DNA of 64,000 bases from Thioalkalivibrio sp. K90mix (GTDB taxonomy: Bacteria > Pseudomonadota > Gammaproteobacteria > Ectothiorhodospirales > Ectothiorhodospiraceae), in contig NC_013889.1 in assembly GCF_000025545.1 (NCBI RefSeq), forward strand, positions 1,915,501-1,979,500, written 5' to 3'. The number at the start of each line of letters is the position of its first letter. The first letter of the stretch is position 1. The notes below the pieces were generated by a model. The model saw nothing but the letters and a program-made list of their open reading frames with translations. It did not search any database and was not told the DNA's origin. The translations under genes were made by a program, and so were the position numbers. Positions 24,645 to 59,584 of the stretch are shown here, piece by piece.

Positions 24645-24916
24645 TAGGGAAACACTGATTAATGTACACACTCGCGTTGGCACCCCAGGTTTTCCGAGAC
24701 AAGGCGCGTCGCGCAGCGGGTAGTGGTTCTACCTGCAAGCGGCGCAACGCAGGATCGGGGAACCTGGGGTGCCAACCCCGAAGGGGCTCGGCCGCTTTTG
24801 CGCGCGCACGGCGTTGCGGCTCCCTTGTGCAGAATGACTGCACGGCAGTCACCGCGCCTTGTTCGCACGCAAAAGCGACTCGAGCGCGAGCGTGTACATT
24901 GATCAGTGTTTCCCTA
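24645..24916 (+). repeat. R1 palindromic element, copy A (272 nt)
   Basis: Ends are TAGGGAAACACTGATTAATG and its near complement CATTGATCAGTGTTTCCCTA. Inside are two arms. Arm 1 is a long hairpin, GTTGGCACCCCAGGTT at the left and AACCTGGGGTGCCAAC at the right. Arm 2 has CTTTTGCG and CGCAAAAG as its stem. The right end supplies the TAG stop of ftsK. It fills the ftsK-lolA gap. Confidence 0.9.
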
Positions 24917-27247
24917 GTCGTTCGGCCCCGGGACCAGGACCTCGCGGTTGCCATTGGACTGCACCGGACTGACCAGTCCGGCGGCCTCCATGTCCTCGAC
25001 CATGCGCGCGGCACGGTTGTAGCCGATCTTCAACCGGCGCTGGATGAACGAAATCGAGGCCTTGCGGGTCTCGATCACGATCTGCACGGCCTGGTCGTAG
25101 AGCGGATCGGTCTCCGCCTCGCCTTCGCCCGGCGCTTCCAGCCCCGGGATGGCCGCCGCGCCCGCCTCCGGCTCGTCGAGGATGGCCTCGTTGTAGTCCG
25201 GCTCGCCAGTGGACTTCAGGTACTCGACCACCTGATGCACTTCGTTGTCGCCGACGAAGGCGCCGTGCACACGCTCCGGCATCGCCTTGCCCGGCGGCAG
25301 GTAGAGCATGTCGCCGTGGCCCAGCAGGTGTTCCGCGCCCATCTGGTCGAGGATGGTGCGCGAGTCCACCCGCGAGGAGACCTGGAACGCAATACGCGTA
25401 GGGATATTGGCCTTGATCAGGCCGGTAATCACATCCACCGACGGGCGCTGGGTGGCCAGAATCAGATGGATACCAGCGGCGCGGGCCTTCTGTGCCAGGC
25501 GCGCGATCAGCTCCTCCACCTTCTTGCCCACCACCATGATCATGTCGGCGAACTCGTCGACCACGATCACGATGAACGGCAACGGCTCCAGATCGGGCGC
25601 TTCGGTCTCGGTCAGTGCCTCCTCCGGCTTGAACAGCGGGTCCTTCAGCGGCTCGCCGGCGGCCTCGGCATCGCGCACCTTCTTGTTGAACCCGCCGATA
25701 TTGCGCACGCCCATCGCCGACATCAGCTTGTAGCGCCGTTCCATCTCCGCCACCGCCCAGCGCAGGGCGTTGGAGGCATCCTTCATGTCGGTCACGACCT
25801 CGCACAGCAGGTGCGGGATGCCTTCGTAGACCGACAGCTCCAGCATCTTCGGGTCGATCAGGATCAGCCGGACCTCGTCCGGGGTCGCCTTGTACAGCAG
25901 CGACAGCAGCATGGCGTTCACGCCCACCGACTTGCCGGAACCGGTCGTTCCGGCCACCAGCAGGTGCGGCATCTTCGCCAGATCCGCCATCACCGGAGCG
26001 CCGCCGATATCCTTGCCGAGCGCCATGGTCAACGGCGACTTGTTCGCGTCGAACAGATCCGAGCGCAGGATCTCCGACAGGGCCACGATCTCGCGGTTTT
26101 CGTTGGGGATCTCCAGGCCCACCGTGGACTTGCCCGGGATCACCTCGACGATGCGCACGGCCATCACCGACAGCGAGCGCGCCAGGTCGGTGGACAGCCC
26201 GGAGATGCGCGAGGCCTTGACACCTGCGGCCGGCTGCAGCTCGAAGCGCGTAATCACCGGGCCGGGCTGCACGGCAACCACCTCGACCTCCACGCCGAAG
26301 TCCTTCAGCTTCAGTTCGACCAGTCGCGAGAGCGCCTGCAGCGACTCCTCGGAGAATCCGTCGGGCGGGGGCGGCGCCTCGTCCAGCAGGGACAGCGGCG
26401 GACGCGGATCGGCCCCGGACCCTTCGGTGAACAACGGGACCTGCTTTTCCTTCTGCACGCGCGGGCTGGGCGGTGGCGCCTCGATGCGCGGCTCCACCCG
26501 CGAGGGCGCGCGCTTCTCGGTGCGCTTGCGCTCCTTCTCCACCCGCGTCTCGCGTTCGGCGCGTTCGCGCGCGCCGATGCGGCGGTCCCGGGCCGAATCC
26601 AGCTGGGCGCGCAGGCGCTCGAAGCCCCGAATGGTCAGTTGCCCCAGCCGGTCCATCAGCAGGAACCAGGACAGCCCGGTAAACAGCGTCACCCCGGCCA
26701 GGAACAGCGCCAGCAGCACCAGCGTCGCCCCGACCAGGCTCAACCCGGCCACCGCCCAGCCGGCGAACAGGTCCCCGAGGATGCCGCCCGCGTGCACCGG
26801 CATCCCGCCCGGGAGCAGGTGCAGCGCGGCCAGGGCCGCGCCCGAGATCAGCGCCACGATCAGCGCCACCCCGCGCACGGTCAGCTCCATCGGGCTGGCG
26901 ATGCGCGCCTCGCGGCGATGCCGGAACAGCCACCAGCCGATGCCGCCGACCGCCAGCGGGATCAAGTACGCCAGATAGCCCAGCAGGTGAAACGCGATGT
27001 CCGCAAACCAGGCGCCGGTGGTGCCGCCGAGGTTGCGCAGGCTCTCGCCGTCGCCGGTGGTGGACCAGGCCGCATCGCCCGGGTGATAGCTCACCAGGGC
27101 GACCAGCAGATAAAGCGCCAGCATGCCGAAGATCAGCAGCGCGCCCTCGCGCAGCCCGCGCAGCAGCTGCCCGCTCAGACTCGGTGCCGCGGCCGGCTCT
27201 GCCGTCTTCCTGCCCTTGCCCCCGGATTTGGCCTTGCTTGCGGCCAT
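24914..27247 (-). CDS. ftsK: DNA translocase FtsK
   Basis: A 777-residue septal DNA pump for chromosome dimer resolution. N-terminal membrane helices (residues ~35-200) are followed by a charged/proline linker, then the alpha-beta motor with Walker A GTTGSGKS (~433-440) and Walker [13 protein letters not shown]. The C-terminal gamma winged helix ([20 protein letters not shown]) reads KOPS. The linker is short compared with E. coli FtsK (1329 aa), as in SpoIIIE-like forms. The start at 27247 has GGGGAG close by; an ATG at 27283 is possible. The last codon is followed by a TAG provided by the R1 copy A end. Confidence 0.95.
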
Positions 27248-27399
27248 GCACTCCCCATCGTGTTCGGCCCGCGACGCGGGCATTGCGAATCATCGCGCAG
27301 TTTACCGGTTAAAACAGCGTTCGTGGTGCCAGGCCAACCAAGCCTGAGAACCGAGTCCCGTCCGGTTGCCTTTTTTCCCACACACAGTGAGCCCTGCCA

Positions 27400-27430
27400 T
27401 CGTGGGAGCGGGCTGCCCGCGAAGGTCCCT
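27400..27430. repeat. Short REP palindrome upstream of ftsK
   Basis: GTGGGAGCGGGCTGCCCGCG is the reverse-complement relative of the CGCGGGCAAGCCCGCTCCCA repeat at 20530. It lies between the ftsK start region and the end of the methyltransferase gene. Confidence 0.6.
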
Positions 27431-28668
27431 CAGTCCCGTCGACAACCCCAGACCGCGAATACCGGATCGGCATGTTCCAACCGCCCGGCGTACGGGTCGT
27501 CCGGCGGGCGCGGCAGGCCACGCAGCGAGAGCGTGGAACGGTCGTCGAATCCTGCACGCAGAAACAAATCGAGTACCAGCCCCATACGCTCGAAGTCGTA
27601 CAACGGCTCCCAGACCGCGATCGTCTTGGTCGGAAAGCAGCGATCGGAGAAGGTCACCACGAAAACCCCACCCGGGCGCAGCAGCTCGCGCACCGAGGCG
27701 AATACCGCCTGTGGACGCGTCAGGTATTCCACCGAGGCGGTACACACCACTGCATCGAAGCTCGCGGGCGGCAGCGGAATCGCCGGCTGTCGGTTCAGGT
27801 CGTGCACCAGGGCCTGATCCAGGGCCTCGTTGGCGGCCAGTTCCTCGTGGTTCATGCCCAGCCCGACAACCGCCTCGGGCCCTCGCAGCTGATCGAGGTG
27901 CGATTCCCAGCTGCTCATCAGGTCCAGCACCCGTGCACCCGGCGGGGTCAGCGTGGCGTACAGCTCCGCGATCCGGGCACGGGCCTCGGCATCCAGGTGA
28001 TGCACCAGTCGCGGACTGGCGTAGAAGTCGCGATCGGGCGCGGGATCCTCGCGCTCGCAGGCATCTGCGGACCAGAAGTCCGTCGGTCGCCCGCGCCAGC
28101 GGGCCTGCATCCCCGGGCCGCGCGCCGTCAGCAGCCGTGCCACGTCCACCATGCCATCGCCGTCGCGCCCGTCCTCATGGGTCGCAAGCACTCGGGCGCG
28201 CAATTGCAGGTCCGTGCCCGAGAGCGGGTGGTTCAGGTCCGCGACGAGCCGCGCATCCTCCAGCGCGCCGATACGGAACAGCTCGCGGTCGCCGGCCTCG
28301 ATGCCGGCATGGCCGGCGATGAACGCACGCGGATAGAAACGCCCGGCACGGGGTTCCACCACTCGGTGACGGCGCAGGCAACGATTGAACGCGTCCACCG
28401 GCAACTCCACCACGCTCGCCGGGTCCGACACCGGGACCTGTCCGGCGGCGGCGCTTTCGACCACCGTCCCGGCACCCTGCCCGGCCAGCTGCGACCCAAC
28501 GGTATCTGGCCAGACATCCCGCGCAGGCATCAGCCACGGCAGAAACAGACAATCGCGATGCCGGGCCTCGGCACTGGCCCAATCCAGCGTAAAACCGACA
28601 TCCAGCGCCTTGTGCGGCATGCTCAATGTCGGTGGCGTGCGGCCCGGGCGGGCAAAGGGGTCGTACAT
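27430..28668 (-). CDS. Class I SAM methyltransferase with an N-terminal SlyD/FKBP-like segment
   Basis: A 412-residue protein. Around residues 120-175, IAGHAGIEAGDRE, LVADLNHPLSGTDLQLRARV resembles the insert-and-strand region of SlyD-type FKBP peptidyl-prolyl isomerases (DFNHPLAGK-L-F). The C-terminal half is a methyltransferase: ARVLDLMSSWESHLDQL (motif I variant), VVGLGMNHEELAANEAL, FDAVVCTASVEYLTRP, LLRPGGVFVVTFSDRCFP. The substrate is unknown. Starts at 28692 and 28668 are both possible; GGGA precedes the latter. Confidence 0.75.
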   Translation of the reverse strand: MYDPFARPGRTPPTLSMPHKALDVGFTLDWASAEARHRDCLFLPWLMPARDVWPDTVGSQLAGQGAGTVVESAAAGQVPVSDPASVVELPVDAFNRCLRRHRVVEPRAGRFYPRAFIAGHAGIEAGDRELFRIGALEDARLVADLNHPLSGTDLQLRARVLATHEDGRDGDGMVDVARLLTARGPGMQARWRGRPTDFWSADACEREDPAPDRDFYASPRLVHHLDAEARARIAELYATLTPPGARVLDLMSSWESHLDQLRGPEAVVGLGMNHEELAANEALDQALVHDLNRQPAIPLPPASFDAVVCTASVEYLTRPQAVFASVRELLRPGGVFVVTFSDRCFPTKTIAVWEPLYDFERMGLVLDLFLRAGFDDRSTLSLRGLPRPPDDPYAGRLEHADPVFAVWGCRRD

Positions 28669-28833
28669 GGATCCGTGTTTCCCTTGCGGCATTCCGGGTA
28701 TGGTACGGCGAACAAGGCTTCGTTTCGTCTGCAGCCGCTGCCAGATCGGCAGCATAGGTCTGGGCACCTGGCAGGTATTGCTGAGATACTCAACACAATC
28801 AAGCAAGTGAGCCAAACAACCAGGGGTCACCTA

Positions 28834-29160
28834 ATGGCCGAAACATTTCTGGTAGCCATCATCGATCAGGATCGCGAAGACCTGGCCTTGGAGATCGCCG
28901 CCGAGGAAGGTGGCATGGACGGCACAGTGATGCACGGCTCGGGGCTCGGCTTCCCCGACCACATGACCTTTCTCGGGGTGACCTACCAGGGCAGGGAATC
29001 GATCTGCATCTGGGAGATGGACGAGCAACGCGCCGAGCGCATTGCCCGCCGCCTGAACCTGGAACTAGACCTCCTGCAGCCCTACAACGGTCTGGCCTTC
29101 ACACTGGATGCCCAGGCCTTGGCGGGCATGCAGTTCGTCGGTGGCCCTGCCCAACCCTAA
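28834..29160 (+). CDS. P-II-like small signalling protein 1
   Basis: A 108-residue protein related to nitrogen-regulatory P-II trimers: short strands (FLVAIIDQDREDLALEIA), a glycine-rich middle (GTVMHGSGLGFPDHMTFLG) where the T-loop would be, and ERIARRLNLELDL. The canonical uridylylation tyrosine loop is not visible, so it is a P-II-like rather than a GlnB protein. It is followed 20 nt later by a second member. The ligand is unknown. Confidence 0.65.
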   Translation: MAETFLVAIIDQDREDLALEIAAEEGGMDGTVMHGSGLGFPDHMTFLGVTYQGRESICIWEMDEQRAERIARRLNLELDLLQPYNGLAFTLDAQALAGMQFVGGPAQP

Positions 29161-29180
29161 TCTTCTGTGCGAGGAACGCC

Positions 29181-29531
29181 ATGCAATTCGTACTGCTCGC
29201 CGCCGTGGTTCCGCGCAACCGGGCCGACCGCGCCATCGAGACCGTCCGCCGCGAGGGCGCGGCCGGCCTGACACTGCTGGAGGGCCAGGGCATTGCCCAG
29301 CTGCGCCGCTCGCCGATCATGGACCTGAAGGACTCCGCGGCGCGCACGGTACTGCTGATGGTCCTGGAAGCCAGCATCGCCGAACGGCTGCTGAAATGCC
29401 TGGACGAAGAGCTCGCGCTAAGCGAGGTGGGCAACGGCTTTGCGTTCACCCTGCCGATCAAGGACATTGCCGGCATCAAGCCCGAGCAGATCGAACACCT
29501 GCGCAAATCCCTGGAACAGGGGTCTCCGTAG
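29181..29531 (+). CDS. P-II-like small signalling protein 2
   Basis: A 116-residue protein with FVLLAAVVPRNRADRAIETV, GLTLLEGQGIAQLRRSP and GNGFAFTLPIKDIAGIKPEQ, parallel in layout to the preceding protein. The two may form a hetero- or paired sensor. An R1 element starts 10 nt after its stop. Confidence 0.65.
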   Translation: MQFVLLAAVVPRNRADRAIETVRREGAAGLTLLEGQGIAQLRRSPIMDLKDSAARTVLLMVLEASIAERLLKCLDEELALSEVGNGFAFTLPIKDIAGIKPEQIEHLRKSLEQGSP

Positions 29532-29540
29532 CACAGGGGC

Positions 29541-29749
29541 TAAGGAAACACTGATCAATGTACACACTCGCGTTGGCACCCCACAAACCATTGAACGCAG
29601 GGGCTCGGCCGCCCGTTGTTATCAAGAACGGGGCGCGCGCACGGCGTTGCGGCTCCCTTGTGCAGAGTGACTGCACGGTAGTCACCGCGCCTTGTTCGCA
29701 CGCAAAAGCGACTCGAGCGCGAGTGCGTACATTAATCAGTGTTTCCCTA
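29541..29749 (+). repeat. R1 palindromic element, copy B (209 nt, arm 1 deleted)
   Basis: The left end is TAAGGAAACACTGATCAATG and the right end mirrors it. Only the first ~15 nt of arm 1 remain (GTTGGCACCCCA), followed by a short hairpin CCCGTTGTTATCAAGAACGG and then a normal arm 2. The right end forms the TAG stop of nhaP2. Confidence 0.88.
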
Positions 29750-31543
29750 ACGGTTCCGATCCCGGGCGCGCCGCCCGCGCAAGGCCCGCCACCAGCCATA
29801 CCACGGCAACGTGAGCCCGTCGCCGCCGGCGCCGTGGCGCATGAAGGCCAGACCGGCCTGCGTCACCCGCCCGAGGTCGTCCACTTCGCGCACGATCAGG
29901 TCCGCCGCGCCAAAGCTCACCCGATCACCCACAATCGGATCTCCCGGCAGCTCCTGTTCCAGGTATGCACCGATGGTCAACTGCTGATCCACCGCGTCAC
30001 AGGACACGCCGTATATCTCGCACAGTTCGGCCAGCCGCTTCTCCGGGTGCAGCGGCAGCTCGCCAAAGAATTCCGGATCCTCGTGGCCCGGTATGCGGGG
30101 GCTCGCAAACAACCGGTCCAGCAGCGGTACGTGCTCCGGTACCACAAAAATGTAGACATAGTCCCCCGGCGTCAGATGCCCGGCCTGCTGGTAGCGCACC
30201 GAGCGCCCCTCGCGCACCACCAGTGACGGGCGCGCCCAGCGTGGCAGGCGTGCCCCGCGCAGCACCGGGCTGTCCTCGATCACACGGTAGACGGCCAGCT
30301 CGTGCCGGGGACTGCCCGGCAGCTCCAGCTGCACCCGTTCCACCGGGCCGATTTCCGGGGGCACGACCAGCCCGAGCCGCTCGGCCACCGGACGAATGGT
30401 CCAGCCCTGCACCAGCAGCGAGACCAGCACCATCATGAACACGATGTTGAAGAAGAGCTCGCCGCCCTCGATCCCGGCCACCATCGGCAGGATCGCCAGC
30501 AGGATCGACACCGCCCCGCGCAGCCCGACCCAGGAGACAAACGCCGTGCTGCGCCAGTCCTGGCGAAACGGCAGCAGACACAGCCAGACCGCCAGCGGGC
30601 GCGCGACCAGAATCAGCACCAGCCCCAGCGCCAGCGCCGGCAACGCCAGCGACGGAAACTCCGAGGGAGTCGCCAGCAGGCCGAGGATCAGGAACATGCT
30701 GATCTGCGCCAGCCACGTCAGCCCCTGCTGCTGGCGGTGCAGCTTCGCCGCCCCACGCAGCTTGCGGTTACCGGCCACGATGCCGGCCACATAGGCCGCC
30801 AGGAACCCGCTCCCGCCCAGCCAGCCGGCCAGCGCGAACAGGGTGACGGCCCCGGCCATCACCGCGATGGGATAAAGCCCCTCTTCCAGCGGCAGGCGGT
30901 TGACCAGTTCCACCAGCAGATAGCCGCCCACCACGCCCAACAGCAGGCCCAGCCCCATCTGCCACAGGAACTCCGTGGCAAACAGCGTGGCCAGACCACC
31001 CACGGTGGTGCCGGACAGGATCCACTCGATAAAGACCACGGTGAGGAAGATCGCCATCGGGTCGTTGGACCCCGACTCCACCTCGAGGATGGAACGCACA
31101 CGGCGGTTAATCTTCACCCCGCCCACACGCAGCAGAAAGAACACCGCCGCGGCATCCGTGGAGCTGATCAGCGCACCCAGCAGCAGGGCATAGGCCCAGG
31201 GCAGATCCAGCAGGTAGTGCGCGGCCACCCCCAGCAGCAACGTGGTCAGCGCGACCCCGACCGTCGCCAGCACGATGGCCGGGCCGGCCGCCCGGCGCAG
31301 GGTGCGCAGCCGGGTGCCAAAGCCCGAGTCGAACAGGATCACGGCGAGCGCGAGGCTACCGATCAGGAAGGCCGTATTGGGATCATCGAACTCGAGCCCG
31401 AGTCCGTCCTCGCCGGCGAGCAGGCCAATCCCCAGGAACACCAGCAGCAGCGGCGCACCCAGCCGGAACGACAGCACCGACGTCAACACCGAGACCACAA
31501 TGAGCCCCGCACCGATGAAGATCAGCGGAAAAATCCAGTCCAT
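29747..31543 (-). CDS. nhaP2: NhaP2-type K+(Na+)/H+ antiporter (CPA1) with C-terminal RCK and CorC-like domains
   Basis: A 598-residue inner-membrane antiporter. Residues 1-~395 contain about 12 helices with ALISSTDAAAVFFLL and ILEVESGSNDPMAIFLT, the CPA1 ion-binding region. The soluble tail has a TrkA-C part (VRYQQAGHLTPGDYVYIFV) and a CorC/HlyC-type part near the C-terminus. It exports cations in exchange for protons, useful in saline or alkaline habitats. Its stop codon lies in the R1 copy B end. Confidence 0.9.
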   Translation of the reverse strand: MDWIFPLIFIGAGLIVVSVLTSVLSFRLGAPLLLVFLGIGLLAGEDGLGLEFDDPNTAFLIGSLALAVILFDSGFGTRLRTLRRAAGPAIVLATVGVALTTLLLGVAAHYLLDLPWAYALLLGALISSTDAAAVFFLLRVGGVKINRRVRSILEVESGSNDPMAIFLTVVFIEWILSGTTVGGLATLFATEFLWQMGLGLLLGVVGGYLLVELVNRLPLEEGLYPIAVMAGAVTLFALAGWLGGSGFLAAYVAGIVAGNRKLRGAAKLHRQQQGLTWLAQISMFLILGLLATPSEFPSLALPALALGLVLILVARPLAVWLCLLPFRQDWRSTAFVSWVGLRGAVSILLAILPMVAGIEGGELFFNIVFMMVLVSLLVQGWTIRPVAERLGLVVPPEIGPVERVQLELPGSPRHELAVYRVIEDSPVLRGARLPRWARPSLVVREGRSVRYQQAGHLTPGDYVYIFVVPEHVPLLDRLFASPRIPGHEDPEFFGELPLHPEKRLAELCEIYGVSCDAVDQQLTIGAYLEQELPGDPIVGDRVSFGAADLIVREVDDLGRVTQAGLAFMRHGAGGDGLTLPWYGWWRALRGRRARDRNR

Positions 31544-31698
31544 CGAATCCCTCTATTTCCTTTGGCCTCGCGTGCGCGGCCATGATCGCATGATTGCCCG
31601 GAAAGCGACGCTCAAGGGAGACCCATCCCGGATAACCGTCGGCCATTCTCGATACCACCGACAAGACCCCGACACTTGCCTCGGACCCTGCCACGGAA

Positions 31699-31718
31699 TA
31701 CTGTATTTATAACCAGTC
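31699..31718. promoter_or_regulatory. LexA (SOS) box
   Basis: TACTGTATTTATAACCAGTC contains CTG-N10-CAG with the usual AT-rich centre, 20 nt before the lexA start; it should autoregulate the lexA-imuA-imuB operon. Confidence 0.85.
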
Positions 31719-31737
31719 ATTCCACGGAGCAGTCGTT

Positions 31738-32361
31738 GTGTCCCTGACCGCGCGCCAGCAGGCCATCCTCGACTACATCAGCGAGACCGTCGCCACCCAG
31801 GGCACGGCTCCGACACGCAGCGAGATCGCCCGCGCCTTTGGCTTTCGCTCGCCCTACGCGGCCGAATGCCACCTGAAAGCCCTGGAGAAAAAAGGCGCGA
31901 TCGAACTGGTGGGCGGGGCCGCGCGCGGCATCCGCCTGGCCGGTGCACGGGCCGCGCGGCCCGCCGAGCTACCCCTGGTCGGGCGCGTGGCGGCCGGCTC
32001 GCCGATCCTCGCCACCGAGCACATCGAACGCCACTACCGGATCGACGACGGCCTGTTCCGGGCCCGCCCGGACTACCTGCTGCGCGTGCATGGCGAGAGC
32101 ATGCGCGACGCCGGCATCCTCGATGGCGACCTGCTGGCCGTGCGCCAGACCCCGGAGGCCCACCCCGGCCAGATCGTCGTGGCCCGCATCGAGGACGAGG
32201 TGACGGTCAAGCGCTACGAGCAGGACGGTGCCCGCGTGCGCCTGCTGCCGGAGAACCCCGACTTCGCCCCGATCGAGATCGACCTGGAGCGCCAGGCGCT
32301 GGCAATCGAGGGCATCGGGGTCGGCGTACTGCGCGATCTTGAATCCCGTGCCCGGCATTGA
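31738..32361 (+). CDS. lexA: LexA repressor (imuAB-associated type)
   Basis: A 207-residue protein starting with GTG. The N-terminal winged helix is [30 protein letters not shown]; the self-cleavage site is VGRVAAGSP; the catalytic Ser is in [10 protein letters not shown] and the Lys in VTVKRYEQD. It represses SOS genes until RecA triggers autocleavage. It overlaps imuA by 14 nt. Whether it is the main LexA of the genome or an extra one tied to the mutagenesis cassette cannot be told here. Confidence 0.93.
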
Positions 32362-32971: not shown

Positions 32972-32972
32972 G

Positions 32973-35622: not shown

Positions 35623-35647
35623 GGACGGATCATGTGCCTTATGCCGA

Positions 35648-36815: not shown

Positions 36816-37102
36816 TAGGGAAACGCTGATGAATGTACGCACTCGCGCTCGAGTCGCTTTTGCGTGCGAACAAGGCGCGGTGAGCGCAGTGTAGCCGAGC
36901 TACATGAGCGAACCGCAACGCCGTGCCCACGCAAAAGCGGCCGAGCCCCGGCATTGAATGGCTTGTGGGGTTGGTACCCCAGGTTCCCCGATCCTGTGTT
37001 GCGCCGCTTGCGGGTAGAACCACTACCCGCTGCACGACGCGCCTTGTCTCGGAAAACCTGGGGTACCAACGCGAGTGTGTACATTCATCAGCGTTTCCCT
37101 TA
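36816..37102 (-). repeat. R1 palindromic element, copy C (287 nt)
   Basis: It is in reverse orientation: ends TAGGGAAACGCTGATGAATG and CATTCATCAGCGTTTCCCTT, with arm 2 first. Arm 1 is GTTGGTACCCCAGGTT / AACCTGGGGTACCAAC. It lies between minC and minD inside the min operon, its edge 17 nt from the minD start codon. Confidence 0.9.
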
Positions 37103-38075: not shown

Positions 38076-38358
38076 CAAGGAAACACTGATCAATGTACAC
38101 GCTCGCGCTCGAGTCGCTTTTGCATGCGAACAAGGCGCGGCGACTGCCGTGCAGTCATTCTGCACAAGGGAGCCGCAACGCCGTGCGCATGCAAAAGCGG
38201 CCGAGCCCTGGCATTCAATCACTTGTGGGGTTGGTACCCCAGGTTCCCCGATCCTGCGTTGCGCCGCTTGCGGGTAGAACTACCGGCTGCACGGCGCGCC
38301 TTGTCTCGGAAAACCTGGGGTACCAACGCGAGTGTGTACATTGGTCAGTGTTTCCTTA
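38076..38358 (-). repeat. R1 palindromic element, copy D (283 nt)
   Basis: Orientation is as copy C. Arm 1 is GTTGGTACCCCAGGTT / AACCTGGGGTACCAAC and arm 2 CTTTTGCATGCG / CGCATGCAAAAG; this last pair differs from other copies on both sides (TGCATGCG against TGCGTGCG). The right end gives the TAA stop of the DUF1295 gene. Confidence 0.9.
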
Positions 38359-39129
38359 AGCTCGCGGCGGACCCGGGATCAGCGTATTGGTGCGCCGCGC
38401 GTACTCCGCATAGCCCGGCCGCGAGGCATGCAGACGTTTTTCCAGTAACGTGACGCCCGACACACGCAGGATCAGCACGATCATCAGGATCGCAGAGGGT
38501 ACCGCCCACCAGCCCCCGGCGGCCAGGGCGAGCAAGCCGTAGCCCACCCAGACGACGATCTCGCCGAAGTAGTTCGGGTGGCGGCTGTAGCGCCACAAGC
38601 CCTGGTCCATGACCTTGCCCCGCCTTGCAGGGTCGGCCCGGAAGCGCGCCATCTGTGCGTCCGCGACCGTTTCATACAGCGTGCCCAGCGCCCAGACCGC
38701 CACGCCCAGCGCCGCCAGCGGCCACCCGATACTCGCGGCATTCGTGACCGCCAGCATCGGCAGGCCGATCACGGCGACCAGCGCGCCCTGCAGCCAGAAG
38801 ATGGTGACCAGGCTGCGCGCGGCAAAGGCCCGGTCCGACAGCCCCTCGCGCATGTCGGTATAGCGCCCGTCCTCGCCGTGACCCCAGTTACGCCAGGTGA
38901 TGAACAGCGACAGCCGCAAGCCCCACACCAGCACCGGGATCACGATCCAGAGGCCCTGTAACGGCCAACCCGCCAGCCCCCACCAGACCAGTGTCACGAC
39001 CACGAAGCCCAGGCCCCAGAAGCGATCGACCAGGCTGGCATCGTGGCGCCATACGCTGCCGGCCCAGACCAGGGTCATCAGAACCAGACTGGCCAGAAGC
39101 CCCCAGAGAAACGCCATCAGTGCCTCCAT
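38356..39129 (-). CDS. DUF1295 membrane protein (steroid 5-alpha-reductase-like)
   Basis: A 257-residue protein with about six hydrophobic helices. The C-terminal QGLWRYSRHPNYFGEIVVWV and PGYAEYARRTNTLIP are hallmarks of DUF1295/isoprenylcysteine-methyltransferase-like reductases. It follows the Cfa-type methyltransferase by 5 nt, a common pairing in gammaproteobacteria that suggests fatty-acid modification in the membrane. TAA stop comes from R1 copy D. Confidence 0.88.
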   Translation of the reverse strand: MEALMAFLWGLLASLVLMTLVWAGSVWRHDASLVDRFWGLGFVVVTLVWWGLAGWPLQGLWIVIPVLVWGLRLSLFITWRNWGHGEDGRYTDMREGLSDRAFAARSLVTIFWLQGALVAVIGLPMLAVTNAASIGWPLAALGVAVWALGTLYETVADAQMARFRADPARRGKVMDQGLWRYSRHPNYFGEIVVWVGYGLLALAAGGWWAVPSAILMIVLILRVSGVTLLEKRLHASRPGYAEYARRTNTLIPGPPRA

Positions 39130-48120: not shown

Positions 48121-48938
48121 CTTCCCCCTGCCGGCCGGTTTCCGCACCCGTCCTGACACAGCCCCGCCTGTGCTCGGTTGCCAGCGGCGTTCAGGCTGGT
48201 CCCGGTTCATCATCCGGTTTTTACGTGCTTTCGGTCCGCCGCCTGCCAAGCGCTCTCTCGCGAGCGCACCGCGAGGTACTTTCTTGCTTGCCCAAGAAAG
48301 TACCCAAAGAAGGGCACCCGGATTCCGCCCGGGAACCTTGCTCCAGGGCCCTCGGGCCGGCGGCGCTGAAACTCGCTGCGCTGTCGCTCCGCTCAGACAG
48401 TCAGCGCCTTCTCCCGGCCCGAGGACCCCTCCGCAAGGGGCTTCATACGGGGGGATAAGGTCAAGACAACGGCGGTCCTGACGTTTGTGCCAATGGATGG
48501 AGGCAAGGTATTCCGACATCCTGGGCACGCGCGGCCTTCGGCCTTGGCATGCCGCGCCCGCCAGCGGGCGCCGGGGAGGCAGGTAGGATGCGGATGAGCG
48601 CAGCGAATCGCATCAGAGTTTCCCCGGCGTGGGAATGGTGCGTTTCGCTGCGCTCAACGCACCCTACAGCTCGGGGCTTAGGACAGGTACGGGGACACCG
48701 TCGGTTTTGGCCTACCCTCCCGATATGAGCCCCTTGTGGAGGGCGTGACAGGCCGGCCGATTCAAAATAGAAACGGGGCGCTGACTGTCTGAGCGAAGCC
48801 AAAGGCGCAGCGAGTTTCAGCGCCGCCGGCCTGGCGCGCCCGGAGCAAGGTCCCCGGGCGAATCCCGGGCGTGTTTCTTGGTTCCTTCTTTGCACGAGCA
48901 AAGAAGCCCGTTTTTGATTAAGAACTGGCGCGGCGCGG
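48121..48938. repeat. 818-nt gene-free gap: long inverted repeat around a BIME
   Basis: The left arm (~48320-48455) and right arm (~48705-48870) are imperfect inverted repeats of each other: GAAACTCGCTGCGC against GCGCAGCGAGTTTC, TCAGACAGTCAGCGCC against GGCGCTGACTGTCTGA, CCGGGAACCTTGCTCC against GGAGCAAGGTCCCCGG. A hairpin GGTACTTTCTTG/CAAGAAAGTACC is at 48275-48304. The middle holds the GTAGGATGCGG...GCACCCTAC BIME (48586-48666). No gene is supported. Confidence 0.8.
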
Positions 48939-50236: not shown

Positions 50237-50263
50237 CCCGCTGACCAGCACGACCCCGGCACC

Positions 50264-51163: not shown

Positions 51164-51182
51164 ATTCGAGAACAGCGCATCG

Positions 51183-52076: not shown

Positions 52077-52105
52077 GCCGTATCGTCCGTGTTGTGTTGT
52101 CTCGA

Positions 52106-52450
52106 TCAGCCCGGGGGCCAGCTCAGCGCGCGACCGCCCAGTACGTGCATGTGTACATGGTAGACCGTTTGTCCGCCGTCTTGGTTGCAGTTCATCACGG
52201 TTCGATAACCGTTTTCCGCAAATCCGCGATCGCGTGCAATCTGTGCCGCCACATGCGCCATGTGCCCGATGACCGGGGCGGTCTCGGCGGTGAGTTCGTT
52301 CAGGGTGGCGATGTGCTGTTTCGGGATCACCAGCACATGCGTCGGGGCCTGGGGATTCAGGTCTTCGAAGGCCAGGACCTGGTCGTCCTCGAACACGACC
52401 TTCGCCGGGATCTCCCCCGCGACGATCTTGCAAAAGATGCAGTCAGCCAT
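52106..52450 (-). CDS. hinT: HIT-family purine nucleoside phosphoramidase
   Basis: A 114-residue protein: CIFCKIVAGEIPAKVVFEDD, LAFEDLNPQAPTHVLVIPK and the histidine triad VYHVHMHVLGG. It hydrolyses AMP-lysine-type phosphoramidates. GGGAG precedes the ATG. Confidence 0.95.
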   Translation of the reverse strand: MADCIFCKIVAGEIPAKVVFEDDQVLAFEDLNPQAPTHVLVIPKQHIATLNELTAETAPVIGHMAHVAAQIARDRGFAENGYRTVMNCNQDGGQTVYHVHMHVLGGRALSWPPG

Positions 52451-52526
52451 CGTCGTCTCCCATGAACGGAGCGGATTTATATCAGGGAACGGTAATGGAT
52501 TCAACGCGCCACAGGCACGGGCGCGC

Positions 52527-53117
52527 TCAGTACTCGCGGCGTCCGGACAGGGCGTGCGCGAGGGTGCCCGCGTCAATGTACTCGAGCTCGCCGCCGGTGG
52601 GGATCCCCTGCGCGATCCGCGTGGCACGAATACCGTGACGCGCGGCCATCTCGGCCAGGTAGTGTGCAGTGACCTCGCCCTCGACCGAGGTGTTGGTCGC
52701 CAGGATCAGCTCGCGCACGCTGTCCTCCTGCAGACGCGCCTCCAGCCGATCCAGCCCCAGCTCTTCGGGGCCGATACCGTCCAGTGGCGACAGCCGCCCC
52801 AGCAGGACATGGAAGCGGCCGGTAAAGTCGGTCGCCGATTCGATGGCCATCACATCGCCCGGGCTCTCGACCACGCAGATCACGCCCGGGTCGCGCTCTG
52901 GATCCGCGCAGCGGGAACAGACCTCGGCCGTGGTCAGCGTGCGGCACACCTGGCAGTGGCCGACGCGCTCGACCGCCTGGTCGACCGCGCGCGCCAGCCG
53001 GCGCGCACCATCGCGGTCGCGCTCCAGCAGGTGCAGCGCCATGCGCCGCGCGGATTTGGCACCGACGCCCGGCAGGCAGCGTAGCGCCTGCACCAGCTCG
53101 TCGAGTTCAGCGTCCAT
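52527..53117 (-). CDS. recR: Recombination mediator RecR
   Basis: A 196-residue protein: helix-hairpin-helix [20 protein letters not shown], zinc finger [19 protein letters not shown], Toprim [15 protein letters not shown]. It acts with RecF/RecO at gaps. Part of the dnaX-ybaB-recR group. Confidence 0.97.
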
Positions 53118-53132
53118 TCGGTGCGGTCGGGA

Positions 53133-53459
53133 TCAGAACGGCAGCTTCATCCCGGCCGGCAGGCCCATGCCCTGGGTCAGACTGCCCATACGCTCCTGGG
53201 TGGTGGACTCGACCTTCTGCACGGCGTCATTGATCGCCGCGGCCACCAGGTCCTCGATCATGTCGCGGTCGTCCTCCAGCAGGCTGGGGTCGATCTTGAC
53301 CCGACGCACCGCGTATTTGCCGGTCATGAGCACACTCACAAGACCGCCACCCGCCTGGCCCTCGATCTCCATCTCGGCCAGCTCGGCCTGCATCTTCTGC
53401 ATGTCTTCCTGCATCTTCTGGGCCTGCTTCATCAGGCCACCCATGCCACCTTTCATCAT
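53133..53459 (-). CDS. ybaB: YbaB/EbfC nucleoid-associated protein
   Basis: A 108-residue DNA-binding dimer: [59 protein letters not shown] precedes the start at 53459; the ATG at 53480 is less likely. It sits between dnaX and recR as in E. coli. Confidence 0.95.
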
Positions 53460-53494
53460 GATTTCGCTCTCCTGCCCCACGCCGTGCGCGAGGG

Positions 53495-55258
53495 TTATCG
53501 TTCAATCGATTGCGACGCGGACGGCTCGTCACCCGCGCGGTCCTCGCGAATGCGTACCGTGCCCAGTTCGGCCCCGAAGGCCTCGCCCAGGGCCTGCACC
53601 ACCGGGTCCTCACGCATCGCCGTTTCGGCGCTAGCCTGACGTTCCGCTGCGTCTGCCGCAAGCCGCGCAGCGGGCGTGGCCTGCGAGGGTTGTGTCTGGT
53701 CGACAATCTCCAGCCGCACCGAGTGCCCGAGGCGTGTTTCGAGGGCCTCTTTCAGGCGCGTGCGGGTTCGATCGGTATAGAGCGTACCCGGGGCTACGGC
53801 GATCACGACGCTTTCGTCATCCAGTTGCTGCAATTCGCCATGTAGTGCGAGTTCTCGCACCGTGCCGGTCGGCAGACCTTCAGCGAAGCGATGCCAGTCA
53901 AAGGGCCCGGAGTCCGGCTCCGGGGACCTGACAGGCTCGGCATCCCGGGGGCGCGGCGCAGACTCGTTCAGTCCGATATCCGAACCGGGGTCCGGCTCGC
54001 GCACCCGCTCCTGAGCCCGCTCGCGCGGCGGCTCCGGGATGGGGGGCGGAGCCGACCGCATCGTGGCGTCGGGCCGGGCCGTGGCCGGATCCGCACTCGG
54101 GCCAGTTCGCGGTGCGGTGGCCGGGGTCCCGCCCTGGCGCTCAACGGACACGGCACCCTCGCCGGGACCTTCCGGCCGAAACGCCAGCAAACGCAGCAGG
54201 GTCATTTCCACCCCCATCTGCGCATCCGGCGCCCAGGGCAGATCGCGGGCCCCGTGAATCAGGATCTGGTAGGTCAGTTGCAGGGTCTCCGCGTCTATCC
54301 GGGCTGCGGTCTCGCGCGCCCAGCGCTCGGCGGCATCGTCGTCCTCGGCACCGCCCTCACCACGCACCAACTGCTCCACGGCCACGCGATGCACGAGGGC
54401 CGCCAGCTCGTCCAGCAGGCGCGACCAGTCGGGCCCCAGGCCCTTGAGCTCCTGCAGACCCTGCATCAGACCCGGGCCATCACCGGCAAAGGCCGCATCC
54501 AGCAGCCCGGTCAAGCGGGTACGCGGCAGCAGGCCCAGCATGTCGCAGGCATCGGACTCGGTCAGGCGGTCGCCGCCATAGGCGATGGCCTGATCAGTCA
54601 GGCTCAGCGCGTCGCGCATGGACCCCTCGGCCGCCTCGCCCAGACGCAGCAGCGCGCCCGGCTCGGCCTGCAGGCCTTCGGCCTCGAGGATGCGTGTCAG
54701 GTGCTCGGCGATCAGCGCCGGCGGCATCGGCTTGAGGTTGAACTGCAGGCAGCGTGACAGCACGGTGACCGGCAGTTTCTGCGGATCGGTCGTGGCGAGC
54801 AGGAACTTGACGTGATCCGGCGGCTCTTCCAGCGTCTTCAACAGGGCGTTGAAGCTCTTCTCGGAGAGCATGTGCACCTCGTCGATCAGGTACACCTTGA
54901 AGCGGCCCGCCGTCGGGGCGTAGGAGACGTTGTCCAGCAGCTCCCGGGTATCGTCCACGCGAGTGCGCGACGCGGCATCGACCTCAATCAGGTCCAGATG
55001 CCGACCCTCCGCGATCTCCACGCAACTGCGGCATTCGCCGCAAGGGGTCGCAGTGATACCGGTTTCACAGTTCAGGCAGCGTGCGAGAATTCGGGCGATC
55101 GTGGTCTTGCCTACCCCACGGGTTCCGGCGAACAGGTAGGCATGATGCAGACGATCCCCGCTCAGGGCATTGGCCAGGGCCCGCACCACATGCGGTTGCC
55201 CGACCAGGTCCTCGAAACGACCGGGACGCCACTTGCGGGCCAGAACCTGGTGACTCAT
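53495..55258 (-). CDS. dnaX: DNA polymerase III subunit tau/gamma
   Basis: A 587-residue clamp-loader ATPase. Walker A is [14 protein letters not shown], the zinc set [19 protein letters not shown], Walker [16 protein letters not shown], and the sensor region [16 protein letters not shown] proline/charged linker (~375-480) leads to the tau C-terminal domain. I see no A-rich slippery sequence like that giving gamma in E. coli, so a gamma form by frameshift is doubtful. Confidence 0.96.
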
Positions 55259-55334
55259 GCCTCCCCCGTCAGTGCAGTCTTCCGCGGGCCCGCGTGCGGG
55301 GCCATCACCGCAGGAATCGGGGCCGCAGGGAAAA

Positions 55335-55450
<116 letters not shown>

Positions 55451-55532
55451 ATAACGCGGTCCTCGAATCGAGGCGAACTCGAATCGGGGTGGCAAGCTTC
55501 CGGGTTTGGCCGGGTGACGTCAAGCATACGCA

Positions 55533-55569
55533 ATAGCTAGAAGCTAATAACACAATAGGAATATAAAAC
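55533..55569 (+). promoter_or_regulatory. OxyR-like binding site
   Basis: ATAG-N7-CTAA-N7-ATAG-N7-AAAC reproduces the spacing of the OxyR consensus (four ATAG/CTAT half-elements), with three of four elements good and the inner T/A of the first half matching (ATAGCTAGAAG). It is ~110 nt before the Prx-Grx gene. In Haemophilus the homologous fusion is OxyR-controlled. Confidence 0.5.
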
Positions 55570-55681
55570 TGGATCAATCGCCGGCCTGCCCTTACCTTGG
55601 GTCCCGTAGTCGGGAACTACCCCGGCCGAATAGAAATCTTCATCCCTGACAAGCAAACGCCAATTAACAGGAGAACACTAA

Positions 55682-56431
55682 ATGGAACTCGAAAATCGCG
55701 AAGGCCAACGCGTACCGGAAGTGACCTTCCGCTGCCGCAAGGACAACGACTGGAACGATGTGCGTTCGGAAGACCTGTTCAAGGGCCGCAACGTAATCGT
55801 CTTTGCCCTGCCGGGCGCGTTCACCCCGACCTGCTCCTCGGCCCACGTGCCGCGCTACAACGAGCTGGCGCCGGTGTTCAAGAAGCATGGCATCGACGAG
55901 ATCGTCTGCATCTCGGTCAATGACGGCTTCGTGATGGAGGCCTGGCAGGCCGACCAGCAGGCCGACCGCGTGACCTTTATCGCCGACGGCAATGGCGAGT
56001 TCACCGAACAGATGGGCATGCTGGTCGACAAGAGCGACCTCGGCTTCGGCTGGCGCTCCTGGCGCTACTCCATGCTGGTGCGCGACGGCGTGATCGAGAA
56101 GCAGTTCATCGAGCCGGACGAGCCAGGCGACCCCTTCGTGGTCTCCGACGCCGACACCATGCTTGCGCATATCGCGCCGGAGGCCGCCTGCCCTGAAGAC
56201 GTCGTCGTCTTCACCAAGCCGGGCTGCCCGTACTGCGCCAGCGCCAAGGAGATGCTGGAGAACGCCGGTCTCGAGTACGAGGAGATCGTGCTGGGCCGCG
56301 ATGCCAGCCTGCGCAGCCTGCGTGCCGCCACCGGCGCGATGACGGTCCCGCAGGTATTTGTCGGCGGCCACCGCATCGGCGGCTCGGAGGACCTGCAGGA
56401 GTGGATCTCCCGCGAGAAGAAGGCGGCGTAA
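55682..56431 (+). CDS. Peroxiredoxin-glutaredoxin fusion (PGdx)
   Basis: A 249-residue hybrid: Prx5-type peroxiredoxin (residues 1-~165, peroxidatic Cys in [16 protein letters not shown]) joined to glutaredoxin (~172-249, [30 protein letters not shown]). It reduces hydroperoxides using glutathione through its own Grx domain. It lies just upstream of glutathione reductase, which would regenerate the electron donor. AGGAG precedes the ATG. Confidence 0.96.
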
Positions 56432-56501
56432 GCCGTCGAAGGCGTACCCGGGGCGGGGGCGGGGTCGTGCCCGTCCCGGGCGGCCACCCGAACTATGGGT
56501 G

Positions 56502-56551
56502 GCCATCCGCATCCGGACACCACCCAGCCCGGATGTCCGGATGCGGATGGC
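56502..56551. terminator. Hairpin between Prx-Grx and glutathione reductase genes
   Basis: GCCATCCGCATCCGGACA and TGTCCGGATGCGGATGGC are perfect 18-bp complements around a 14-nt centre. No U-run follows; it may attenuate read-through into gor or be a REP-type repeat. Confidence 0.7.
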
Positions 56552-56618
56552 AGACCCTGACGACCGTAAACAGTACGGTCGTATGCGAAACTTTCACCGA
56601 ACCCCTCAAGGAATCGAA

Positions 56619-58019
56619 ATGGAACACTACGACATCATCGTGATCGGCGGCGGCAGTGGCGGCCTGGCAGTGGCCGAGCGTGCCGCGCCGCACGGCGCCC
56701 GCGTCGCCGTGTTCGACCCGAAACCGCTCGGCGGTACCTGCGTGAACGAAGGCTGTGTACCGAAAAAGCTCACCTGGTATGCCGCCGAGCATGCCGCGCA
56801 GGCACGCCTGGCGCACGAGTTCGGCGTCGATGTCGAGATCAAGGGCATCCGCTACGCCGATCTGGCCAACCAGCGCCAGGCGATGCTGAAAGACCTGAAC
56901 CAGTTCTGGGCCGGGCACCTGGAGAAGCTGGGCGTAACCCACATCCCTGAACGCGCTCGCCTGGCCGGCAAAAACCAGGTGATCAGCGACAGCGGCACCG
57001 AATACACCGCCGAACGCATCGTGCTGGCGATGGGCGGCGCCCCGATCGTCCCGCCGCAGGAGGGTGCCGAACTGGGCACAACCTCCGACGACTTCTTCGA
57101 ATGGACGGAGCTGCCGCAGTCCATCGCCGTAATCGGCGCCGGCTACATCGGCCTGGAGATGGCCGGCATGCTGCGCTCCCTGGGCGTAAAAACCGACGTG
57201 GTCGCGATGGAGGACCGCGTGCTGGAGATGTTCGACCCGATGGTCTCGCAGGCGCTGGACCAGCACATGGAGCACCAGGGTATTGGCCGCCATCTGGGCG
57301 TGAAGGTCGCCGGTCTGGGCGGCAAGCCAGGCGCCGTGACCGTCCAACTCGAGGGCGGCCAGGAACTGGGCCCGTACGAGAAAGTGCTATGGGCCGTTGG
57401 CCGCAAACCCGCCACCGCTGACATGGGGCTGGAAGACGCCGGCGTCGAGATCGCCCGTGACGGCACCGTCCCGGTGGACGCGTGGCAAGCGACCAACGTC
57501 GACGGCATCTATGCCCTGGGCGACATCATTGGCAAGGGTCCGCTGACGCCGGTTGCGATCGCGGCCGGTCGCCGAATGGCAGATCACTGGTATGCCCCGG
57601 AGACGAACCCCGTCCCCGTGGACTATGACCAGATCCCGACGGTCACCTTTACCCACCCGACCGCCGGCATGGTCGGGCTGACCGAGCCGCAGGCCGTGGA
57701 GCGCTTCGGCGAATCGGTGCGCGTCTACGAGACCCAGTTCGGCGGTCTGGACCGCGCCTTCGCCACGGGCGAAGTGCCGCCCGTGGCGATGAAGCTGGTC
57801 TGCGCCGAAGAGGATGAAAAGGTCGTCGGCATCCACATGATCGGAGCCCATGTGGACGAGATGTTGCAGGGCTTTGCCGTGGCCGTGCGCATGGGCGCCA
57901 CCAAGCGCGACCTGGACCTGACCATTCCGCTGCATCCGACCAGCGCCGAGGAGCTGGTAACCCTCAAGGAGGCCCGCCCGGGCCGCCAGAAGGGCCTGGC
58001 CAAGGCCAAGGCCGCTTAA
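56619..58019 (+). CDS. gor: Glutathione-disulfide reductase-like pyridine nucleotide-disulfide oxidoreductase
   Basis: A 466-residue class I flavoprotein: IIVIGGGSGGLAVAERAA, redox pair GGTCVNEGCVPKKL, second nucleotide site IAVIGAGYIGLEMAGML, and C-terminal active-site HPTSAEELVTL. The NADPH-type site has no clear arginine pair (MLRSLGVKTDVVAMED), so NADH use is possible. AAGGA 6 nt before the ATG. It supplies GSH to the upstream Prx-Grx. Confidence 0.92.
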   Translation: MEHYDIIVIGGGSGGLAVAERAAPHGARVAVFDPKPLGGTCVNEGCVPKKLTWYAAEHAAQARLAHEFGVDVEIKGIRYADLANQRQAMLKDLNQFWAGHLEKLGVTHIPERARLAGKNQVISDSGTEYTAERIVLAMGGAPIVPPQEGAELGTTSDDFFEWTELPQSIAVIGAGYIGLEMAGMLRSLGVKTDVVAMEDRVLEMFDPMVSQALDQHMEHQGIGRHLGVKVAGLGGKPGAVTVQLEGGQELGPYEKVLWAVGRKPATADMGLEDAGVEIARDGTVPVDAWQATNVDGIYALGDIIGKGPLTPVAIAAGRRMADHWYAPETNPVPVDYDQIPTVTFTHPTAGMVGLTEPQAVERFGESVRVYETQFGGLDRAFATGEVPPVAMKLVCAEEDEKVVGIHMIGAHVDEMLQGFAVAVRMGATKRDLDLTIPLHPTSAEELVTLKEARPGRQKGLAKAKAA

Positions 58020-58044
58020 CAGGCGGCTGGTCGCAAACGGCAAA

Positions 58045-58077
58045 ACGCCGCCCCTGTGCAAAGCGCCGGGGCGGCGT
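58045..58077. terminator. Hairpin downstream of gor
   Basis: ACGCCGCCCC and GGGGCGGCGT form a 10-bp stem 26 nt after the gor stop. The T-run is on the minus-strand side, so termination could work from either direction. Confidence 0.65.
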
Positions 58078-58174
58078 GCCTGTGTTGCCCAAGGTGATGG
58101 CGAAACGAATGCGGCAGAGCGAACCTGCTCGATCGCCGATACCCGTCAGGCATTTGTGGCGGCCTGCACTTGTC

Positions 58175-58490
58175 GAGGGAGACGCTGATCTAATTGCACG
58201 TCCGTGTTGGTGCCCCCTGTTTTCCGAGACAAGGCGCCTCTGGCAGCGGCTAGTGGTTCTACCCGCCCGTTCTTGATGGATTCGGGGCGCAACGCAGGAT
58301 CGGGGAACAGGGGGCACCAACCCCACAAGCGATTGAAAGCAGGGGCTCGGCCGCCCGTTGTTATCAAGAACGGGCGCGCGCACGGCGTTGCGCCTCCTTT
58401 GTGCAGAATGACTGCACGGCCGTCACCGCGCATTAAACGCACGCAAAAGCGACTCGAGTGCGGACGCGCGATTCAATCAGCGTCTCCCTA
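58175..58490 (+). repeat. R1 palindromic element, copy E (316 nt)
   Basis: The ends are of the GAGACGCTGAT subtype. Arm 1 is GTTGGTGCCCCCTGTT / AACAGGGGGCACCAAC and contains an extra CCCGTTCTTGATGGATTCGG insert. The right end supplies the TAG stop of the ompX-like gene. Copy F at 59299 is its inverted partner on the other side of that gene. Confidence 0.9.
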
Positions 58491-59120
58491 GAAGCGCCAG
58501 CCCAGCGACGCGGTGAAGGCGTCCATCTTGTAGTCGCTGTCGAAGTCATAGCGCTCGTATTCCGCGCGGATCATGAACGCGTTCAGATTGACCTGCATCC
58601 CGACACCATAGACCGGATCGAAACCGTCCTGACTGCGCAGCGTACGGCCCTCGTCTCCCAGGTTACCGCGTACGTCCGCATCCCACTTGGCCGCACCGAC
58701 CTTCGCGAAGGCCTCCACATAGGGGCCGATCGGCAACTTGCCGAGCACACTGGCACCGTAGGCCGTCGAGCGGACGCTCGAGTGCGCGCCATCCTCGTCC
58801 CCGCGCAAAGTCACCTCGCCCAGATCGGTATAGAAGCCCTCGACCGCGAGATAGCGATTGAAGTTGTAACCGACAAAGCCGCGCCAGACGTTGTCATCGT
58901 CGTCGATGCTGTAGTCCGACGTCCCGGATCCGATGAAATCCGCGACCTCGTCGCTGTCGTTCTTCAGCGAGCTGAAGCCCGTCCCCAGACCCATATACAC
59001 ACCCGTGGTGCGGTCACGCTCCTGGGTCGTGCGATCGCGATCCTGCTGTGCCAGCGCACTCTGGGAACCCAACAGGACGAGCGCCGATACTGCAACCCCG
59101 GCAGCCAGATAACGTTTCAT
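58488..59120 (-). CDS. OmpX/OmpA-like small outer-membrane beta-barrel protein
   Basis: A 210-residue protein with signal peptide KRYLAAGVAVSALVLLGSQS-ALA, a charged repeat (RDRTTQERDRTT), then strands such as VYMGLGTGFSSL, VWRGFVGYNFNRYLAVEGFY, AYGASVLGKLPIGPYVEAFA, MIRAEYERYDF, ending FTASLGWRF with terminal Phe. It resembles eight-stranded OmpA-domain proteins. AAGGAGAGG precedes the ATG. R1 elements in inverted orientation bracket the gene. Confidence 0.85.
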   Translation of the reverse strand: MKRYLAAGVAVSALVLLGSQSALAQQDRDRTTQERDRTTGVYMGLGTGFSSLKNDSDEVADFIGSGTSDYSIDDDDNVWRGFVGYNFNRYLAVEGFYTDLGEVTLRGDEDGAHSSVRSTAYGASVLGKLPIGPYVEAFAKVGAAKWDADVRGNLGDEGRTLRSQDGFDPVYGVGMQVNLNAFMIRAEYERYDFDSDYKMDAFTASLGWRF

Positions 59121-59298
59121 TTTCCTCTCCTTATCATTTGCTAATGGTGCTTGAGGACGGCAAAACAACGGAGAGGATTCTTGATTCAATCCAGGCCACA
59201 TGGAAGACGCAATGATTGAACCGATTCATACTTACAAGGATGCCTGCATGACCCGGCCATCAATCATTGACCGAGCGCACACCCACTTTGACTCAGGT

Positions 59299-59584
59299 TA
59301 AGGAGACGCTGATTGAATCGCGCGTCCGCGCTCGAGTCGCTTTTGCGTGCGTTTAATGCGCGGTGACTGCCGTGCAGTCATTCTGCACAAGGGAACCGCA
59401 ACGCCGTGCGCGCGCAAAAGCGGCCGAGCCCCTGCTTTCAATGGCTTGTGGGGTTGGTGCCCCCTGTTCCCCGATCCTGCGTTGCGCCGCTTGCAGGTAG
59501 AACCACTACCTGCTGCGCGACGCGCCTGGTCTCGGAAAACAGGGGGCACCAACGCGGACGTGCGATTCAATCAGCGTCTCCTTA
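59299..59584 (-). repeat. R1 palindromic element, copy F (286 nt)
   Basis: Reverse orientation. Ends are TAAGGAGACGCTGATTGAAT and its complement ATTCAATCAGCGTCTCCTTA; arm 1 GTTGGTGCCCCCTGTT / AACAGGGGGCACCAAC. It lies upstream of the ompX-like gene, whose promoter must be between 59121 and 59298. Confidence 0.9.

Follow-up and report, generated by a model that had tools for sequence, protein, structure and literature searches.

Miniature inverted-repeat transposable elements (MITEs) are usually regarded as passive insertion sequence (IS) remnants. We examined R1, a palindromic repeat present six times in a 64,000-nt stretch of the Thioalkalivibrio sp. K90mix genome (contig NC_013889.1, positions 1,915,501 to 1,979,500; hereafter the window, whose own numbering is used below). 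Among described elements, MITEPsy1 of Pseudomonas syringae is an IS5-type MITE of 100 nt with 18-nt ends, and the portion of its report consulted does not mention paired structured arms (PMC3189936). In QMITE, Chunjie and other type II MITEs the terminal repeats are all that is shared with an IS, and the copies, like those of R1, have variable lengths and stable folds; unlike R1, no arm conserved across genera is mentioned for QMITE or Chunjie in the available sections of the source (PMC10969869). Repetitive extragenic palindromic (REP) sequences of the GTAG kind are also comparable, and GTAG-1 REPs have been reported in K90mix itself. According to the sections of PMC3733652 at hand they are, like R1, palindromic and often dimeric, with G-T pairs in the stems and ends that often supply TAG stops. 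They differ in having stems of 5–13 bp with terminal GTAG, while R1 has arms of about 104 nt with another core, set inside terminal repeats of the DDE type. No description of this arm was found in the literature searched, as far as the available text of those sources extends.

R1 is an IS5-type MITE, having the tested features of that class. An earlier note on this DNA had recorded six copies with shared ends and taken them for a non-autonomous mobile unit. All six are present (copies A to F, 24648-24913 to 59302-59581), and a YTAR-type flank borders every one of them on one or both sides. A window search for the shared end, allowing up to 2 mismatches, gave 13 matches against 0.15 expected in shuffles, and 10/13 are ends of copies A–E. 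The mobile nature of the unit is supported by a transposon partner, target duplications and empty sites. The terminal repeats are 28 bp long and come in two types, GGAAACACTGATNNATGTACAC and GGAGACGCTGATTNAATCGC. The gene caller, the sole test of coding capacity, placed no gene in the six copies, and the elements are shorter than about 400 bp. The K90mix genome contains at least 53 two-ended copies, counted from the window plus 50 stretches fetched around listed matches (match C1:2300504 was left out). Together with relatives, 132 elements of 202–341 nt were extracted, 131 of them distinct.

The partner is an IS5-family element of about 1.2 kb, present in the same genome as three copies (L072, L084, L090) with 99.8–99.9% identity. 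It encodes a 321-aa transposase that matches NF033581 (IS5 family) at 319 bits (cut-off 140). PF01609 gave three matches in this genome, and a profile search with PF13586 gave none. The outer end GGAAACRCTGAT is common to the MITE and this element, whose full outer ends are GGAAACGCTGAT and GGAAACACTGAT. Two copies are flanked by CTAG repeats and the third by GTAG repeats. The element differs from the MITE in its transposase, in its two ends, which are unmatched at positions 7, 13, 14, 17 and 18, and in the lack of the arm in the copies tested. Derivation of the MITE by internal deletion of the IS was not supported, as the arm was found in 0/14 IS loci, a set that does not include L072, which adjoins a MITE; the arm is thus not a transposon remnant. 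In locus L019, from 1315-1629 on, a MITE copy abuts a full IS5-family element and one CTAG is common to both. This common bacterial type of transposase probably moves the repeat.

Exact target duplications are seen at copy B (CTAA) and copy F (TTAA), and 42/53 copies have a YTAR flank on at least one side. The site of copy C is empty in relatives G001 (CTTAG intact) and G041 (one base differs) and filled in G005 and G021. G001 has copy F but lacks copy E, whose empty site there reads CTAG; in G041 the site of copy F is empty and reads TTAA. Copy D is fully absent in G005; in G001, G021 and G041 only its right end is left, joined to the left flank, as would be left by a deletion. Presence and absence among relatives record past movement only. 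Copy A, used as the query against 40 genomes, gave matches in 14 of them (E ≤ 0.001): its own genome, 12/24 others of the genus, and one weak match in another genus. A later match in that last genome is an arm belonging to a different element. At L030 (2415-2440) two end fragments are fused into a near-perfect palindrome, perhaps an excision or deletion footprint.

Each arm, about 104 nt long, is a hairpin that combines an outer stem of 19–22 bp with a conserved core, CAAGGCGC ... CAAG ... GCAACGC. A whole-element search of 369 genomes of the class gave weak, partial matches in five genomes of other genera. Three of these loci read as two-armed palindromes, the fourth has two matches to a covariance model of the arm (model R1), and the fifth has none. 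The core pattern ACAAGGCGCG N14-44 SCGCAACGC occurred in 17/369 class genomes, with 2 matches in total for the reversed control. It was present at 29 places outside Thioalkalivibrio, for 23 of which DNA was fetched. In 19 of these 23 loci, which were picked by the core alone, 15–19 of the 19 flanking positions pair in one register, compared with 3–12 in shifted controls; the remaining 4 pair at 7–8 of 19. Seventeen arms, 15 from other genera and 2 from Thioalkalivibrio, were then aligned without regard to structure (alignment A1). The armless loci L331, L332, L334 and L337 and the duplicate or same-genome loci L328, L347, L354 and L355 were left out, and L338 is the same place as L324. In A1 80.2% of cells are paired, against 35–43% when slid, the covariation score is 0.688 against 0.186 after shuffling, and each of the 22 outer pairs has changed on either side. 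A second alignment of 65 arms (A2) gave 84.2% paired against 36–42% slid, and a score of 0.813 against 0.204. Arms of other genera thus have unrelated but complementary stems in the same pairing register, and at this scale the claim of a kept fold is well supported by comparative data.

Wobble pairs indicate the strand that folds. With the 65 arms of A2 read in the sense direction, two adjacent outer pairs carry 24 and 23 G-U and 0 A-C. Outer pairs 6–24 have 84 G-U to 18 A-C, and the middle helix 32 to 1. Read from the opposite strand, the same positions would be A-C mismatches, so the sense strand is taken to be the folding strand, pointing to RNA or single-stranded DNA as the folding form. 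Of the two, we infer RNA. The arms are convergent, so one sense arm lies on each strand.

Model R1 matched 112/369 class genomes (88/271 genera) and 81/398 genomes of the phylum, of which 49 are in another class, 37 of these in one family. The two samples overlap, only the ten best candidates per genome were scored, and single matches were partly inspected. With the same scoring the model found nothing in two genomes of other genera in the family of Thioalkalivibrio. Matches occur in 8/17 genomes behind the named loci. Among these, Denitromonas iodatirespirans has 21, Halopseudomonas oceani 12, Cupriavidus necator 4, Pseudomonas arsenicoxydans 3, Chromohalobacter beijerinckii 1, and Frateuria a single weak one. 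Arm length is 103–105 nt in 57/65 matches. A plus arm followed by a minus arm, 3–24 nt apart, was present at 26/35 loci (two of the 35 from Thioalkalivibrio), and the opposite order at 0. Where ends were found the other elements mostly span 262–294 nt; none were found at L336, L362 and L375. The ends vary (GTGTCCTGTC, GTACTCCTTC, GTGGGCCATG, GGGCCTGTTA, TTAACCCGG and others), and many adjoin CTAG or TA. The two-armed element of H. oceani has ends GGAAGCACTGATCAATTCC (shorter form GGAAGCACTGAT) adjoining CTAG, close to the Thioalkalivibrio kind. The kinds of terminal repeat that enclose such arms thus number at least five, and the arm persists while the ends around it differ. Two elements of other genera were compared with plasmids: one had no match and one a 51-base match to an Azotobacter chroococcum plasmid with no annotated feature beneath it. 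A comparison of one such element with phages gave no match.

Covariation within Thioalkalivibrio was measured on the 131 distinct copies, using an alignment, a tree, and a null in which substitutions are redealt on each branch (400 simulations). The terminal repeats gave the largest signal, with 80 compensatory double changes (null mean 1.4, maximum 5). In arm 1 there were 10 events in the outer stem (null 0.7, maximum 4), 2 in the middle part (null 0.6, maximum 4) and 6 in the apical hairpin (null 0.4, maximum 4). The opposite arm covaries little, with 7 events (null mean 1.9, maximum 6). Counting was done helix by helix because the division of the ends into types a and b broadens the null of pairwise tests; a pairwise, phylogeny-aware test resembling R-scape found just 1/110 pairs significant at E ≤ 0.05. 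Matched variation of the ends centres on positions 13 and 14. Positions 11–14 are matched in 89/131 copies against 17.2 expected, with 15 distinct matched words. Position 23 is unmatched in 37/81 type a copies and position 21 in 14/30 type b copies. The earlier note had described three versions of the arm 1 stem, each with the matching change on its opposite strand. This holds in the window for the five copies with arm 1 retained and weakens across the 131 copies of the genus, where the four commonest states of that pair are T-A 46, C-G 43, T-G 23 and C-A 11; 34/123 of these are not Watson-Crick.

The same note had concluded from co-variation that a fold is maintained. To separate changes made in place from those between insertions, pairs of copies at the same site in different genomes were collected. 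Flanks identified 34 pairs, 23 remained after redundant loci were dropped, and 16 were aligned; the 23 are not all independent, since two sites contributed three pairs each. Across the ends of the 23 pairs, 25 differences are one-sided and 2 are two-sided, and of these 2 just 1 is matched. For comparison, 46 nearest paralogous pairs were taken without using any copy twice; their ends differ on one side in 78 cases and on both sides in another 78, and 71 of the latter are matched. The 16 aligned pairs have 16 one-sided and 0 two-sided differences (Fisher P = 8e-5 against the paralogous pairs), with interior divergence similar in the two sets (8.4 versus 9.9 mismatches). Copy F has one matched end change in place. 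As matched changes turn up between insertions and scarcely at a site, end matching is a property of the moving lineage. It may arise from transposition copying one end to the other or from only matched elements moving. The fold is not visibly maintained at each resident locus. The conclusion of a maintained fold is therefore not supported for resident copies, whose terminal-repeat signal lies between insertions, and is well supported at the wider scale, for the internal arms across genera. One same-site pair, L029/L172, has its interior inverted between retained ends in two relatives; it is included in the count of 23 and left out of that of 16. Several same-site copies (L048/L176, L063/L168, copy C and others) differ by 15- or 30-nt hairpin modules within the arms, which suggests conversion between copies.

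Copy A (24648-24913, +; 266 nt) lies between TTAG and CTAG, with arms at 24673-24776 (+) and 24786-24888 (-) that score 88.5 and 70.8 bits against model R1. Its right flank CTAG contains the stop codon of the minus-strand gene 24914-27283. Copy B (29544-29746, +; 203 nt; CTAA on both sides) has lost one arm, as had been noted, and keeps the other only in part (29633-29703, -); its right flank contains the stop codon of the minus-strand gene 29747-31543. Copy C (36819-37098, -; 280 nt) has CTTAG on either side and arms at 36844-36946 (+) and 36970-37073 (-). Copy D (38079-38355, -; 277 nt) is flanked by TCAA and TTAA, the right flank containing the stop codon of the minus-strand gene 38356-39129, and has arms at 38104-38206 (+) and 38230-38330 (-). 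Copies E and F have type b ends. Copy E (58178-58487, +; 310 nt) lies between CGAG and CTAG with arms at 58203-58321 (+) and 58374-58444 (-, weak), and copy F (59302-59581, -; 280 nt) has TTAA on either side and arms at 59327-59429 (+) and 59453-59556 (-). All 11 arms found in the window by model R1 are within these six copies. A lone terminal-repeat remnant (7288-7309, +) lies immediately 3' of the stop codon of the gene 6817-7287.

Membership of R1 in any Rfam family was not supported. Against Rfam 15 at the gathering score the window matched only the bacterial small signal recognition particle RNA (55345-55441, -), with nothing in the six copies; the best scores were 27.9 bits for eight arm loci (41.2 needed) and 26.2 bits for copy A (90 needed). 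Integron attC sites have the core boxes GTTRRRY/RYYYAAC, and these were not noticed in the arm consensus by eye alone. The conserved GTAG foot of REPs and REPINs is absent from the base of the arm consensus. Elsewhere in the window, two neighbouring short palindromes with GTAG/CTAC at start and end (48583-48667) resemble the GTAG-1 REPs of K90mix by eye. Around them is a 75-nt inverted repeat (48307-48381 and 48805-48879; 81% complementary, spacing 423 nt).

The explanation that we favour, and hold to be reasonably probable, is that IS5-type MITEs bear, once on each strand, a conserved single-strand module under selection in lineages that move, with an IS5-family partner supplying transposase. 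In K90mix the resident IS5-family element probably provides the transposase, which would insert the MITE at YTAR sites in trans. The two hairpin arms, convergent within the 28-bp ends (sense, then antisense), present one sense arm on each strand, and each arm belongs to a structural family spread across Pseudomonadota. Stem sequences are freely replaced in this family, yet their pairing holds to one register, and the core is retained along with two wobble-rich pairs, as would be expected of folded RNA or folded single-stranded DNA under selection. Selection would act in lineages that are still transposing, with resident copies decaying one side at a time. As to its job, the likeliest is that the arm, carried on read-through transcripts, would make insertion at the 3' end of a gene tolerable or would recruit a host or transposition factor.

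Several results weigh against this proposal. YTAR is present on both sides of only 21/53 copies, the flanks are identical in 18/53, and 12/24 other genomes of the genus had no match to the element. The arms change mostly on one side, both in same-site pairs (arm 1, 43 one-sided and 4 matched; arm 2, 47 and 0) and in paralogous pairs (arm 1, 107 and 8; arm 2, 103 and 0), and the 4 matched arm 1 changes fall in two same-site pairs that also differ by hairpin modules. The wobble bias is diluted over all 35 modelled pairs of A2 (163 G-U to 92 A-C; apical helix 46 to 25) and is reversed in the two outermost, mostly unpaired positions (1 to 48). Among recent Thioalkalivibrio changes it is weak (arm 1, 68 G-U to 47.5 A-C, P = 0.08; arm 2, 61 to 66), which would fit resident copies that are largely released from selection. 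The invariance of the core in A1 is built in, since the core picked A1, and A2 was fitted to a model whose E-values are rough.

Pairing could also be produced by mutation, if quasi-palindrome template switching or end-to-end recombination copied changes across without any function of the fold. The near equality of matched and one-sided end differences between insertions (71 to 78) fits such copying, as do the matched change in place at copy F and the inverted interior of L029/L172, which indicates that end-to-end exchange may happen. Changes in place are nevertheless 25 one-sided to 1 matched, and position 23 of type a ends and position 21 of type b ends are often unmatched. Correction would moreover erase wobble pairs and the unpaired core, yet both persist across genera, and we regard this explanation as rather unlikely. 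Less likely again is that the ends covary only through fit to the transposase or joint copying at transposition and that the arms are inert cargo handed down from an ancient shared ancestor. Matched changes do go with insertions rather than residence, and the opposite arm covaries little among close copies; however, matching seems unneeded for transposition where the partner's own ends are unmatched (7, 13, 14, 17 and 18), and inert cargo would not keep 15–19 of 19 positions paired in one register in unrelated sequences. The inverted doublet with one sense arm per strand and wobble on one strand only would suit a single-stranded DNA handle for a second, unseen enzyme, as REP doublets are for the REP-associated tyrosine transposase (RAYT) and attC sites for integrases. 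We consider this improbable: a GTAG foot is not conserved at the base of the arm, and the ends together with the YTAR flanks are already those expected of a DDE transposase.

The position of copies at gene ends raises a further alternative, namely that they serve mainly as gene-end parts, the duplication giving a stop codon and the hairpins protecting or ending the mRNA, as suggested for REPs. A gene's stop codon lies in the duplicated flank of 21/53 copies and in the flank or first 16 nt of the element in 29/53. REP ends often give TAG stops in the same way, according to the part of PMC3733652 available. No copy (0/53) lies inside a called gene, though a split gene would be called as two shorter ones. 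Free YTAR sites outside coding sequence in the window overlap a stop in 11/45 cases, so the excess, which also bears on tolerance at gene ends in the favoured explanation, is not firm (Fisher P = 0.13), and target choice plus survival may suffice. At copy E the stop codon is already present in the CTAG target of the empty site in G001. An intrinsic terminator in copies A–D was not supported, as they contain no terminator-like site and the region is no richer in such sites than shuffles (5 versus 6.3). A main role as gene-end parts is therefore doubtful.

More broadly, and tentatively, the arm may be a widespread unnamed structured module of RNA or single-stranded DNA, housed in MITEs with several unrelated kinds of ends. 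The convergent pair would then be an orientation-independent handle for the mobility or tolerance of elements that have no genes. Many genera retain a folded module that shows strong compensatory change, while its stem sequences and the surrounding terminal repeats differ. Selection on the interior of a MITE can thereby be tested directly, and in a structured family that yielded no Rfam match. Mobile repeats can, in addition, covary between insertions with no visible upkeep in place, which calls for caution when covariation tests are applied to repeat families.

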